Assembly (NCBI RefSeq): GCF_001982635.1
Contig: NZ_MKFI01000002.1
Span: forward strand, 919,313 to 983,312
Origin: Bradyrhizobium mercantei
Lineage (GTDB): Bacteria > Pseudomonadota > Alphaproteobacteria > Rhizobiales > Xanthobacteraceae
Reading direction: 5' to 3'
Length of the DNA stretch: 64,000 nucleotides
Positions 14,840 through 18,963 of this stretch are shown one piece after another. Below the pieces are notes generated by a model. The model saw only the letters and a list, made by a program, of their open reading frames with translations, ran no database searches and was not told the DNA's origin. Positions within the stretch are counted from its first letter, which is position 1; each line of letters starts with the position of its first letter. Both the position numbers and the translations under genes were made by a program.

Positions 14840-15496
14840 TCAACCAGACGCGTTGGCCGGCTCGGACATCGCGATCCGGTTCCTGACGCTGGGACGCTCC
14901 TGCATCCTCGCGTACCATGCCGAAAGAGCCTCGCACTCCGCCGGCACAGGCACCTTCAGGAGTCCGGCGAAGATCAGGCCGCCGATGAGGGTGATATCGG
15001 CCATCGTGAACGCCTCGCCGGCGACGAACGGCTGCCGCTGCAGAATGCCGTCAAAGTAGTGCATCCCCCTGAGAGCCTTGTCGCGCTGACGGAAGCCCCA
15101 TTCGGGGTTCTGATAGATCTCGACATGAGGCCCAAGACCCGGCGTGGCGTGGTGGAAATAGACGCTGATGGGGTCGAGCACCTCCAGTTCCGCGCGTTTG
15201 CTCATCATGTGGATCACGCCCTTTTCGCGTGGCGTCCTGCCGGTCAGCGTCGGCGCGCCATCGAGCGCGTCGAGATATTCGGTAATGGCCGTGCATTCGC
15301 CAATGTAGGTCCCGTCGTCGAGTTCGAGCACCGGCAGCGTGCCCGAGTAGTTCTTCGCGAGGAATTCCGGTTTCTTGTGCTCGCCCTTGTAGAGATCGAC
15401 CAGGACGAACTGCACCTGCGGCCGCAGGTTCTTCTCGGCCAGGGCGATGCGAACGCGGGCCGGATATGGACCGGTCGGCCAATCGTAGATCTTCAT
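14840..15496 (-). CDS. Glutathione S-transferase family protein
   Basis: A 218-residue cytosolic glutathione S-transferase. The N-terminal thioredoxin-like domain (MKIYDWPTGPYPARVRIALA) has the glutathione-binding cis-Pro/Asp-Ser equivalent region as GTLPVLELDDGTYIGECTAI, with Glu-Cys in place of Glu-Ser. The C-terminal helical domain carries the capping motif AGEAFTMADITLIGGLIFAG. A catalytic Ser/Tyr near the N-terminus (Pro-Tyr-Pro-Ala-Arg) is plausible. ATG 15496 has GGGAG 7 nt upstream and is preferred over ATG 15508, which overlaps that site. It is divergent from a TetR regulator with two identical operators between them, so induction by an electrophile that releases TetR is likely (inference). 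Confidence 0.9.
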   Translation of the reverse strand: MKIYDWPTGPYPARVRIALAEKNLRPQVQFVLVDLYKGEHKKPEFLAKNYSGTLPVLELDDGTYIGECTAITEYLDALDGAPTLTGRTPREKGVIHMMSKRAELEVLDPISVYFHHATPGLGPHVEIYQNPEWGFRQRDKALRGMHYFDGILQRQPFVAGEAFTMADITLIGGLIFAGLLKVPVPAECEALSAWYARMQERPSVRNRIAMSEPANASG

Positions 15497-15513
15497 CACA
15501 ACTCCCATTTTGT

Positions 15514-15610: not shown

Positions 15611-16174
15611 GTGAGTTCAAGCGCTCGGGAGGCCATCTTGGCGGCAGCAAAGCGGACCGCGCAGGCGCGCGGCTATGGCGGCTTGAATTTCCGCGATCTC
15701 GCGGACGAGGTCGGGATCAAGGCAGCCAGCATCTATCACCATTTTCCGAGCAAGGCCGAACTCGGCGCCGCCGTCGCCCGGCGCTACTGGGAGGACACCG
15801 CCGCCCAGCTCGAGGCGATGCTGGCGGAAACGGCGGATCCTGTCCGCTGCCTGCGTCGATATCCCGAGGTGTTTCGCAAGGCGCTCGAGAACAACAATCG
15901 CATGTGCCTGTGCAGCTTCATGTCCGCGGAGGTCGACGACCTGCCGGACGCGGTGAAGCAGGAGGTCCAGACCTTTGCCGACGTCAACGTGGCGTGGCTG
16001 AGCAAGCTGCTGGTTGCGGCGCGCCTGGCCAGTGCAAGAAAGAGCGAACAGCGCGCCCGCGCCATCTTCGCCGCCGTCGCCGGCGCGCAGCTGATGGCCA
16101 GAAGCCGCTCCGATATTTCGCTCTACGACTCCCTGATCGACAGCTATCGCGCCGCCGGTCTGCTGCCGGCGTAG
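15611..16174 (+). CDS. TetR/AcrR family transcriptional regulator
   Basis: A 187-residue TetR regulator. The N-terminal helix-turn-helix is AREAILAAAKRTAQARGYGG, then FRDLADEVGIKAASIYHHFP. The ligand domain contains NNNRMCLCSFMSAEVDDLP. The Cys-Leu-Cys in the ligand domain resembles members that sense electrophiles, which would fit control of a GST (inference). Translation starts at GTG 15611 after GAGG, giving a family-normal N-terminus. Two identical 18-bp operators lie between it and the GST gene, implying autoregulation together with GST control. Confidence 0.92.
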   Translation: MSSSAREAILAAAKRTAQARGYGGLNFRDLADEVGIKAASIYHHFPSKAELGAAVARRYWEDTAAQLEAMLAETADPVRCLRRYPEVFRKALENNNRMCLCSFMSAEVDDLPDAVKQEVQTFADVNVAWLSKLLVAARLASARKSEQRARAIFAAVAGAQLMARSRSDISLYDSLIDSYRAAGLLPA

Positions 16175-16182
16175 CTAGCCGC

Positions 16183-16267
16183 GTAGCCCGCATGAGCGCA
16201 GCGATATGCGGGAGACCACAACGCGAGTGAAAGAGCCCCGGATATCGCTACGCTCATCCGGGCTACG
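16183..16267. repeat. Palindromic repeat family C, copy 6
   Basis: A complete, nearly consensus copy: GTAGCCCGCATGAGCGCAGC at the left and CATCCGGGCTACG at the right. It separates the TetR gene from the convergent HNH gene. Confidence 0.85.
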
Positions 16268-16287
16268 CCTGCCAATTGTCCACAAGC

Positions 16288-17190
16288 TCATTGCTTGAAG
16301 CAATGCTCTCGATGCCATCGAAGGAAATGCGGATGCGGACGGTCAGACGTGCGTTGCGGCGCAAGCGCAAGACCTGACTTGTTAATGATCGATCGTATGC
16401 CTTGCGGATCGTTGGTCTGCCGCGAGATCAATATTTCCAGATTGTCAGCCAAGCTGATCAAGCCGCGGTCAAACATCCAATGCGCCGTGCCTGAAAGCGC
16501 GATCCCGTTGCTGATGATGTCGGGTCCGCTAGCTTCCACTGGCCGAATGTGTGCGGCCGCAACCTCTGCCCGCCCTCTTCCATTAATGAGTTTTAGCCCT
16601 GTAATGGCGCACCGCTCATCATAGGCGCGCAGGACGACGCGTCGGAATATCCGATCGCGCAAGATCCTCGACATAGTGACTGTGGCGCGATCACGCTGTT
16701 GGTCGTACGTGAAAGGCACCTGCTCTTCTGCAAGAGTAGGCAGTGGCATTTCATCATCGAGCCGAGGCAGTAAGGGAGCCTTTTCCTCGAGGCCGATTCC
16801 AACGATTCTACTGAAATCTTCAGGAGAGATTGGCCGGACTGCCGACTGAGCGCGTCCCGAAATCCGTCCCTCGTCGTTGAGAACTCCTCGTTCTATCGGC
16901 TGCCCGGTTGGATCGTTAAAGGGAACCGGATTGGCAAAGTCGAGGTAACTTCCCGGCTCAATCAGCGCAAGATACATCCCAGGTGCGCTTGGGTCTGCGA
17001 TAACTTGATGAACCTTTGCAATCGCAAAGTAGCCACGCGTTTCCGCGACCTTGCGCGGTTCGTAGTAAATTATCCAATCACCGACGCACGCTTCTACGCG
17101 ACGCAAATACTGGCTGGGAAATTGATACTGTTCGGCTGGACTGTCCTCATAGATCGAGTCCAGCCGATGAATGAATACTCCCAGTCCCAT
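16288..17190 (-). CDS. HNH endonuclease with EVE/PUA-like N-terminal domain (candidate type IV restriction enzyme)
   Basis: 300 residues in two parts. Residues 1-95 (VGDWIIYYEPRK at 36-47, GYFAIAKVHQVIADP at 53-67, MYLALIEPGSYLDF) look like the EVE/PUA-type base-reading fold. Residues about 180-260 are a COG3440-like HNH nuclease: ERCAITG, then AAAHIRPVEA (His214), ISNGIALS (Asn228), and AHWMFDRGL (His237, Asp241). EVE plus HNH is the architecture of modification-dependent enzymes such as VcaM4I, so the protein may cut DNA with modified cytosine. No methylase is adjacent, as expected for type IV. The base composition looks more AT-rich than the flanking genes, and it sits between repeat C6 and guaA, suggesting acquisition by transfer. 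The EVE call is by eye; the HNH call is firm. Confidence 0.75.
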   Translation of the reverse strand: MGLGVFIHRLDSIYEDSPAEQYQFPSQYLRRVEACVGDWIIYYEPRKVAETRGYFAIAKVHQVIADPSAPGMYLALIEPGSYLDFANPVPFNDPTGQPIERGVLNDEGRISGRAQSAVRPISPEDFSRIVGIGLEEKAPLLPRLDDEMPLPTLAEEQVPFTYDQQRDRATVTMSRILRDRIFRRVVLRAYDERCAITGLKLINGRGRAEVAAAHIRPVEASGPDIISNGIALSGTAHWMFDRGLISLADNLEILISRQTNDPQGIRSIINKSGLALAPQRTSDRPHPHFLRWHREHCFKQ

Positions 17191-17263: not shown

Positions 17264-18877
17264 CTACTCCCACTCAATCGTCCCCGGCGGCTTAGACGTC
17301 ACGTCGTACACCACCCGGTTGACGCCCTTCACCTCGTTGATGATGCGCGTCGCGGTCTCGCCCAGGAATTTCATGTCGAACTGGTAGAAGTCGGCAGTCA
17401 TGCCGTCGGTCGAGGTGACGGCGCGCAGGCCGACGACGTATTCGTAGGTGCGACCGTCGCCCATCACGCCGACGGTCTTGACCGGCAGCAGCACCGCGAA
17501 GGCCTGCCAGATCGCATCATAGAGGCCGTGCTTGCGGATCTGGTCGATATAGACGGCATCCGCGTTGCGCAGGATGTCGAGCTTCTCCCTGGTGATGTCG
17601 CCGGGGCAGCGGATCGCAAGGCCGGGGCCCGGGAACGGGTGGCGGCCGACGAAGACTTCGGGCAGGCCGAGCTCGCGGCCGAGCACGCGCACCTCGTCCT
17701 TGAACAATTCGCGCAAGGGCTCGACCAGCTTCATGTTCATGCGCGCCGGGAGGCCGCCGACATTGTGGTGCGACTTGATGGTGACCGACGGGCCGCCGGT
17801 GAAGGAGACGCTCTCGATCACGTCGGGATAGAGCGTGCCCTGCGCCAGGAACGCGGCCGGTCCTTCGCCTTTTTTTGCGATCTTCTTGGCTTCCGCCTCG
17901 AACACGTCGATGAACAGGCGGCCGATGGTCTTGCGCTTCACCTCGGGATCGGTGACGCCTTCGAGCTCGCCGAGAAACTCTTTCGACGCGTCCACATGGA
18001 CCAGCGGGATATTGTAGTGGTTGCGGAACAGGTCGACGACGGTCTTGGCCTCGTCGAGCCGCAGCAGGCCGTGATCGACGAACACGCAAGTGAGCTGGTC
18101 ACCGATCGCCTCGTGGATCAGGACCGCGGCGACGGCGGAATCGACGCCGCCGGAGAGGCCGCAGATCACCTTGCCCTTGCCGACCTGGGCGCGGATCTTC
18201 TCGATCGCCTCCTCGCGGAAGGCGCGCATGGTCCAGTCGCCGGTCAGGCCTGCAACCTTGCGCACGAAATTGCGCAGCAGCTTCGCGCCGTCGGGCGTGT
18301 GCACCACCTCGGGGTGGAACATCAGGCCGTAATATTTGCGCTTCTCATCCTGGATGATCGCGAACGGCGCGTTCGGCGAGGTGCCGGCCACCGAGAAGCC
18401 GGGCGGCATCTTGGTGATGCGGTCGCCATGGCTCATCCACACCTGGTGCTTCTCGCCGTGGTTCCAGAGGCCGTCGAACAGCTGGCTGTCGGTCTTCACC
18501 TCGACATCGGCGCGGCCGAATTCGCGGTGGTGGCCGCCCTCGACCTCGCCGCCGAGCTGGGCCGCCAAGGTCATCTGGCCGTAGCAGATGCCGAGCACGG
18601 GAACGCCGGATTCGAAGATCAGCTGCGGGGCGCGCGGCGAGCCGGTCTCGTGCACCGATTCCGGACCGCCGGAGAGGATCACCGCCTTCGGCTTCATCTC
18701 CTTGAAGGCGGCCTCCGCCTTCTGGAACGGCACGATCTCGGAATAGACGCCCATCTCGCGGACGCGGCGGGCGATCAGTTGCGTGACCTGGCTGCCGAAA
18801 TCGACAATCAGAATCTTGTCATGCGCCGAGGCCACCGAGGGCGCCGACGATTCACGGTCTGTGTGCTGGGCTGTCAT
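17264..18877 (-). CDS. guaA: GMP synthase (glutamine-hydrolysing)
   Basis: The last step of GMP synthesis: XMP + ATP + glutamine to GMP. The 537-residue protein has the N-terminal class I glutamine amidotransferase ([20 protein letters not shown]; nucleophile Cys in [12 protein letters not shown]; His/Glu in MFHPEVVHT), then the ATP pyrophosphatase with P-loop [14 protein letters not shown]. The C-terminal dimerisation domain follows ([11 protein letters not shown] and the end KPPGTIEWE). The length is slightly above the E. coli enzyme (525) because of a Ser/Ala-rich N-terminal leader of about 20 residues. Its pathway partner guaB lies 10 kb away in the same orientation. It is divergent from the NTF2-like gene. 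Confidence 0.98.
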
Positions 18878-18963
18878 GGCAAGCAGATACGCGACAGCGC
18901 CCGCCCCCGCAACCGCGGCCAGCGTTGCGCCCACATTCTTCTTTGGGCATGGACAAATCGATA

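Follow-up and report, generated by a model that had tools for sequence, protein, structure and literature searches.

A lone gene behind guaA in Bradyrhizobium, predicted to encode an EVE-HNH modification-dependent restriction endonuclease

The gene and its surroundings

The region analysed here, hereafter the window, is a stretch of 64,000 nucleotides (G000:C12:919313-983312) from an 8.84-Mb genome. It raises the question of what a single nuclease-like gene does directly behind the GMP synthase gene guaA, which base its product might recognize and how it came to lie there. The open reading frame, taken from the ORF analysis of the window, has an ATG start and encodes 300 amino acids followed by a stop codon; it begins 73 bases behind the guaA stop codon, on the same strand (Table 1). 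The first-pass annotation had proposed it as a candidate mobile, solitary defence gene whose product would join an EVE-like reader to an HNH nuclease, the layout of enzymes that cut 5-methylcytosine DNA.

Table 1. Features of the gene and its neighbourhood, in window coordinates
Feature	Position	Strand	Basis
CDS of the EVE-HNH protein	16288..17190	-	ORF and family matches
N-terminal EVE (PUA-superfamily) domain, predicted, residues ~1-135	16786..17190	-	AlphaFold2 model, Foldseek, VIA-align; Pfam EVE below cut-off
Linker, residues ~136-174, lowest conservation	16669..16785	-	Regional conservation; low model confidence (pLDDT under 50 from 137 on)
C-terminal HNH nuclease domain, residues ~175-300	16291..16668	-	Pfam HNH_2, model of residues 151-300, VIA matches
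Active-site stretch H214, N228, H237, D241	16468..16551	-	Family alignments, alignment to VcaM4I
guaA (GMP synthase), upstream neighbour	17264..18934	-	Pfam GMP_synt_C, GATase
guaA 3' end	17264..17279	-	GAGTGGGA at 17268-17275, island attachment core reported for guaA
Dispersed palindromic repeat, between HNH gene and tetR gene	~16179..16270	.	Motif search of the window
TetR-family regulator; bounds the variable interval on the far side in some relatives	15611..16174	+	Pfam, comparison of relatives
Glutathione S-transferase (GST) family gene beside tetR	14840..15508	-	Pfam, comparison of relatives

The gene differs in composition from its flanks, as had been noted. Its GC content is 54.7% in a window of 65.2%, its GC3 is 55.8% against 78-91% in five neighbours, and when a 903-base frame was slid along the 64 kb, only one of 1262 positions had a GC content as low. 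The absence of a partner methylase was likewise confirmed. None was detected among eight neighbours scanned with Pfam (two of the eight gave no Pfam match at all), and a search of the whole genome for C5-cytosine methylases (PF00145) found none up to an E value of 10, so that the gene is solitary in the manner of the VcaM4I group. Promoter and terminator scans and an Rfam search gave no result.

A palindromic element ends 17 bases from the stop codon of the gene, which agrees with the adjacency described in the first-pass annotation. Its motif had 7 plus-strand and 7 minus-strand matches in the window (up to 2 substitutions), two of them at this place and 12 elsewhere, with GAGCGYAGCGAYATSCGGG-like arms. 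Because the repeat is dispersed across the window, it was rejected as part of a mobile unit, and the suggested tie between the repeat and mobility of the gene did not hold.

Two halves of the predicted protein

In the C-terminal half, Pfam HNH_2 matched residues 194-247 with 34.1 bits (cut-off 21), PADLOC HNH models matched with E values of 1.1e-18 and 1.2e-8, and a 35-row family profile compared with solved structures found TagI (E 4.2e-8) and VcaM4I (E 1.1e-7), both via the HNH part. A model of residues 151-300 (mean pLDDT 82.6) was closest by VIA to TagI (Z 13.3, rmsd 2.7, 111 aligned) and VcaM4I (Z 12.1, rmsd 5.2, 119 aligned), the next structure reaching 6.3, and its Foldseek ranks 1-3 were two VcaM4I chains and TagI. 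In the 35-row family alignment H214 and N228 were invariant and H237 nearly so; over 39 HNH rows H214, N228 and D241 were invariant and H237 again nearly invariant. Aligned through close relatives of VcaM4I, H214/N228/H237/D241 correspond to H224/N241/D250/D254 of that enzyme, whose active-site residues have been assigned roles (PMC7897488, available text). The HNH residues H214, N228 and H237 named at the outset are thus present and conserved, and the domain has intact active-site residues, as in the VcaM4I group. One otherwise intact relative (L069:4739-5635) carries Arg at position 237, where the last HNH histidine would stand.

The N-terminal half was less accessible to sequence comparison. 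Pfam EVE reached 13.3 bits against a cut-off of 23, the EVE profile was detected at E up to 1 in 8 of 35 family members, and no EVE match above cut-off was obtained with Pfam, NCBIfam, the scan of family members or phmmer against solved structures. The best phmmer match of the N-terminal 140 residues, Rho at E 0.089, was taken as chance. The full-length AlphaFold2 model, in contrast, was good for residues 1-135 and poor for 137-235 (pLDDT under 50). Foldseek with the whole model placed VcaM4I at rank 1 (E 1.9e-6; TM 0.30 and rmsd 19.6 over the whole chain). The next matches were MJECL36, the N-terminal domain of an McrB and further structures of the EVE and YTH kinds. VIA-align, from which the poorly modelled stretch is excluded, gave Z 12.5 to PH1033 (rmsd 2.6, 124 aligned), 11.5 to MJECL36 (rmsd 2.8, 122 aligned), 10.8 to 2eve (rmsd 2.9, 120 aligned), 9.8 to THYN1 with methylated DNA (rmsd 3.0, 120 aligned) and 9.7 to VcaM4I (rmsd 13.5, 181 aligned). 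The poor full-length superposition on VcaM4I (rmsd 13.5-19.6, TM 0.30) can be ascribed to residues 137-235 with their pLDDT under 50.

In the predicted structure, residues 1-135 therefore form an EVE fold. An N-terminal fold unrelated to EVE, PUA or SRA would have spoken against the first-pass annotation, and the matches to PH1033, 2eve and VcaM4I show the contrary; the reader it placed in the first 95 residues has the expected fold in the model, although its span is about 135 residues. Joined to an HNH_2 domain above cut-off, this predicted fold also agrees with the EVE-HNH architecture that had been suggested. A profile alignment between the EVE halves of the window family and of a VcaM4I-type set (three sequences only) had a probability of 0.4%, and, judged by sequence, the N-terminus belongs to an EVE subfamily that is distinct from that of VcaM4I and far from it. 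Since the EVE halves could not be aligned by profile, neither the pocket residues of VcaM4I nor its 5mC/5hmC specificity were transferred to the window protein; pocket residues guessed from an unguided MAFFT alignment were dropped once the profile alignment had failed. In the VcaM4I group a linker helix inhibits the HNH domain; the model of the window protein has a helix at residues 175-191, predicted with pLDDT under 50.

Distribution and the guaA-linked site

Matches at E up to 0.001 were present in 21 of 60 genomes, the window's own included, the weakest covering the HNH half only. A tblastn search (E up to 1e-3) found 568 stretches in genome contigs that encode a relative; the best 80 of these, with at least 70% identity, were kept, and they belonged to Alphaproteobacteria wherever titles or tree labels give a taxon. 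Matching plasmid records numbered 140, of which 44 matched over at least 80% of the query, while three viral contigs and five phage records matched, the phage records only partially. Three sequences on IMG/VR contigs, putative phages (L105, L106, L107), had 62-67% identity over the best segment. Compared with the 30 closest relatives among the best 80 of 568, dN/dS was 0.04-0.12, a rough figure because dS exceeded 1 in 29 of the 30 comparisons. The gene is, on this approximate measure, under strong purifying selection, and with its many relatives the open frame is more than a chance one.

The genus set comprised 242 genomes, of which 50 had a close intact gene (at least 66% identity), 24 only a relative of 40-47% identity and four fragments only. 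The places of both guaA and the gene could be read in 37 of the 50 close genomes (that of G009 from a separate search). The gene was located at most 1.1 kb downstream of guaA in 27 of them, 24 on the guaA strand, and 4 to 17 kb downstream in seven, while in three it was elsewhere or on another contig. Of the four fragment-only genomes, one has its fragments no more than 250 bases from guaA, one at a distance of 10.9 kb and two at other places. None of the 40-47% relatives was found within 20 kb downstream of guaA on the same contig (15 of the 24 with a guaA place, some separated on draft contigs). Named relatives with the gene behind guaA were mostly Bradyrhizobium (among the best 80 of 568); the gene was also next to guaA in three Pseudolabrys MAGs and in L032 and L086.

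Relatives without the gene carry other genes at the same guaA place. When the guaA stretches of ten relatives were compared with the window, the interval between guaA and the GST/TetR pair, for which a presence/absence check had been proposed, turned out to be variable: two had the gene with tetR-GST not adjoining (L151, L152), three had tetR-GST behind a different filler (L150, L155, L158), one had part of tetR-GST (L157), and four had neither (L149, L153, L154, L156). In L029 and L054 the gene is followed by tetR-GST, as in the window. Fourteen open frames behind guaA were extracted from relatives and ten of them scanned with Pfam, which identified LysR, AMP-binding, a periplasmic binding protein, a DUF pair, an integrase, HNH_2, CHAT, nSTAND1 and a trypsin-plus-nuclease protein, one frame having no match. 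Later scans added glyoxalase-like, cytochrome c, kinase, beta-lactamase-fold hydrolase and nitroreductase genes beside PD-(D/E)xK and PIN genes. Of ten proteins behind guaA, four had a PADLOC match (E up to 0.001), including one weak match. For the CHAT, nSTAND1 and trypsin-plus-nonspecific-nuclease proteins (L118, L119, L126), PADLOC matched CHAT only, without a match for the other two. Another HNH_2 protein behind guaA (L114:86-1360) matched PADLOC UzuA over residues 2-159. The gene sits where foreign genes have often been inserted; a hotspot purely for defence was rejected because many non-defence genes lie behind guaA in relatives.

Islands are known to attach at the 3' end of guaA, with GAGTGGGA as the core (PMC7775301, available text, citing Song et al. 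2012). In the window guaA ends in GATTGAGTGGGAGTAG, the sole copy there at up to 2 mismatches; at 3 mismatches four copies were observed against 4.4 expected by chance. An island integrated at guaA would have its cargo right behind guaA and a duplicate of the guaA 3' end beyond the cargo; in the window the EVE-HNH gene lies directly behind guaA, but no second guaA tail was found. Sixty-seven guaA loci were compared (30 with only 1.5 kb downstream, some places included twice, and L108 being the window), and in five of them a portion of the guaA tail was present twice. In L052 (5721-7104) the EVE-HNH gene is the only one between guaA and a duplicate of 140 bases of the guaA 3' end (89% identical), with the core of the copy altered by one base and no integrase between guaA and the copy. 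In L153 (5700-7000) a lone gene with DUF6602, PD-(D/E)xK and NucC matches is enclosed between guaA and a 185-base tail copy. An 84-base tail copy was found at +3.5 kb in L157, a copy of 19 bases only in L044, and a 51-base internal piece at +1.8 kb in L054. The order in L054 (5928-9154) is guaA, EVE-HNH, a PIN gene, the 51-base piece, tetR and GST, which suggests that tetR-GST is the original neighbour of guaA. In L031 (5900-6900) an unrelated first unit follows guaA; the core ATCGAGTGGGAGTAG comes next, at a distance of about 1.0 kb from guaA, and the EVE-HNH gene starts about 80 bases behind this core. The arrangement looks like stacked units.

Core matches were counted in the 36 loci whose downstream part spans 2.5 kb or more (35 of them distinct, L028 and L152 being the same place; 31 of the 67 were left out). 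A match to the locus's own last 20 guaA bases at up to 4 mismatches was present in six of the 36 on the same strand and in none on the opposite strand, and the 8-base core gave 9 on the same strand against 0 on the opposite one, all of which are small numbers. No integrase was found inside the small guaA-tail units. From the arrangements in L052, L153, L031 and L054, example loci that were picked after looking, it is conceivable, though short of probable, that the guaA 3' end of Bradyrhizobium is a stacking site for small integrase-less cargo units, the EVE-HNH gene being a long-lived one. Each unit would, in the same tentative reading, combine a guaA-tail attachment core with a single gene or a small number of genes, in many cases just a nuclease gene.

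As to the age of the gene, a tree of 84 proteins mostly follows taxonomy. An exception stands beside the window, where L025 (Aestuariivirga, another family) pairs with the window protein with support 100/94. Distances of guaA and of the HNH protein were correlated. The Spearman coefficient in a Mantel test was 0.73 for 26 rows, a value that none of 2000 permutations reached, and 0.40 (p 0.0145) for the 21 rows that remain without L032, L062, L065, L080 and L086. GC content was below that of the flanks in all 30 relatives tested, and, being common to them all, low GC is no sign of recent arrival. Fresh transfer as the main account was therefore rejected, on the largely taxonomic tree, the correlated distances and the shared low GC. 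The gene is not rare; within the genus it is of long standing and found mostly at a single site. The term mobile, as used in the first-pass annotation, is supported in part: the guaA site, the duplicated guaA tails of relatives, the occurrence on plasmids and the close copy in L025 favour transfer, but the term does not fit the age of the gene within the genus and its mostly constant place, nor is the palindromic repeat related to it.

Target base, alternative explanations and known systems

A broad 5mC cutter should be rare in genomes that make 5mC, so depletion of C5-cytosine methylases (PF00145, E up to 1e-20) was used as a test of the target, with the four fragment-only genomes excluded from the gene-positive sets. 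Such methylases were present in 81 of the 242 genomes. They occurred in 18/50 genomes with the close gene and in 63/192 without it (p 0.74), and in 21/74 with any intact relative against 60/168 (p 0.30), neither comparison being corrected for phylogeny. In the 40-47% subfamily (24 of the 242 genomes, e.g. L013-L017) a C5 methylase was present in only 3/24, against 78/218 of the others (p 0.023, one of three tests and uncorrected). Depletion with the close gene was not found among these 242 Bradyrhizobium-group genomes, and methylase depletion as proof of a 5mC target was rejected for the close family. Its absence speaks against a broad 5mC target, although it is weak evidence because methylases differ in sequence context. 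The 5-methylcytosine specificity originally proposed is thus unproven, the EVE half being unalignable in sequence to VcaM4I-type EVE domains and C5 methylases being as common with the gene as without it.

Taken together, the EVE-fold model and the conserved HNH residues, the lack of a partner methylase, the purifying selection and the patchy, mostly guaA-linked presence make it probable that the window protein is a solitary EVE-HNH modification-dependent (type IV) restriction endonuclease, with predicted catalysis. This lone gene for a two-part protein most likely encodes an ordinary phage-defence enzyme of a known class. By analogy with VcaM4I, its EVE domain would flip a modified base into a pocket, the likeliest base being a cytosine modified at C5, for example 5hmC, or 5mC within a restricted context. 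Base flipping would release the autoinhibition of the HNH domain, which, probably as a dimer, would then cut nearby DNA of a phage or an incoming plasmid.

A variant of this explanation, with which its probability overlaps, is that the EVE-HNH endonuclease responds to another mark, namely phage hypermodification, phosphorothioate or context-specific adenine methylation. It would be favoured by the undepleted C5 methylases, by the divergence of the EVE half from that of VcaM4I, by the m6A-reading YTH domains that make up much of the N-terminal structure list, and by an NCBIfam model for restriction of phosphorothioate DNA (NF045808) that matches the HNH half with 95.5 bits. That model has a cut-off of 180 bits and matches residues 173-299 only, with no match in the reader part, and the differing contexts of methylases weaken the first of these points; another mark is accordingly regarded as rather unlikely. 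The possibility that the protein is an SRA-HNH enzyme of the TagI type draws on TagI being the top VIA match of the HNH half, ahead of VcaM4I. It is very improbable; the N-terminal model matches EVE, ASCH and YTH structures, with no SRA among the 50 matches listed.

EVE domains are also active in RNA biology, so the protein could instead be an RNA-directed or DNA-repair nuclease that cuts modified RNA or damaged DNA, and the related EVE structures do include proteins without ties to restriction. The HNH half is nevertheless nearest to the restriction enzymes TagI and VcaM4I, and the gene, unlike a repair gene, has a patchy distribution, occurs on plasmids of rhizobia and is frequently found at an insertion site, which leaves little room for this reading. 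Eight plasmid neighbourhoods of close relatives had no common partner by product name, and the neighbours were mostly non-defence genes. One of the eight is a defence region with an AbiE pair, an abortive-infection gene and a type I restriction system; toxin-antitoxin genes were near the gene in two and a BrnA antitoxin in another one. One of the eight plasmid relatives has an adjoining DNA methyltransferase gene and, further off, a caspase-family gene.

As a putative solitary EVE-HNH restriction endonuclease dependent on modification, a widespread rhizobial 'HNH endonuclease' gains a testable role, with a reader domain that sequence searches of this rhizobial family had missed. If active, the enzyme would hinder both phages whose DNA is modified and the transfer of DNA into Bradyrhizobium, possibly with a new base specificity. 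The guaA-linked setting is a place to look for further lone defence genes.

The EVE-HNH class of restriction enzymes is already known from VcaM4I and others (PMC7897488) and from EVE-HNH fusions (PMC7641849), as far as the available parts of both papers go, and a literature search of partial coverage found no paper devoted to the rhizobial subfamily. The census by Bell et al. 2020 (PMC7641849, available part) counts EVE-HNH among the core architectures of putative type IV enzymes; its main text does not contain 'rhizobi', and window-type proteins may be in its supplementary lists. Phosphorothioate-dependent enzymes are related through the HNH half, with ScoMcrA among its structure matches, although the protein falls short of the family model as described above. 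TagI has the closest HNH half by VIA Z, but its reader domain is an SRA (PMC7897488, available text), whereas that of the window protein models as EVE. VcaM4I is the best Foldseek match of the whole protein model and has the same domain order in 309 amino acids, against 300 here. The HNH halves of the two align; the EVE halves are unalignable in sequence, so that no residues of the window protein are assigned with confidence to the base pocket of VcaM4I (P24, W82, Y130 and the wedge Q128). The window protein further differs in having His where VcaM4I has Asp at the last position of the HNH moniker, and in an insert around GRGRAEV that is absent from VcaM4I.
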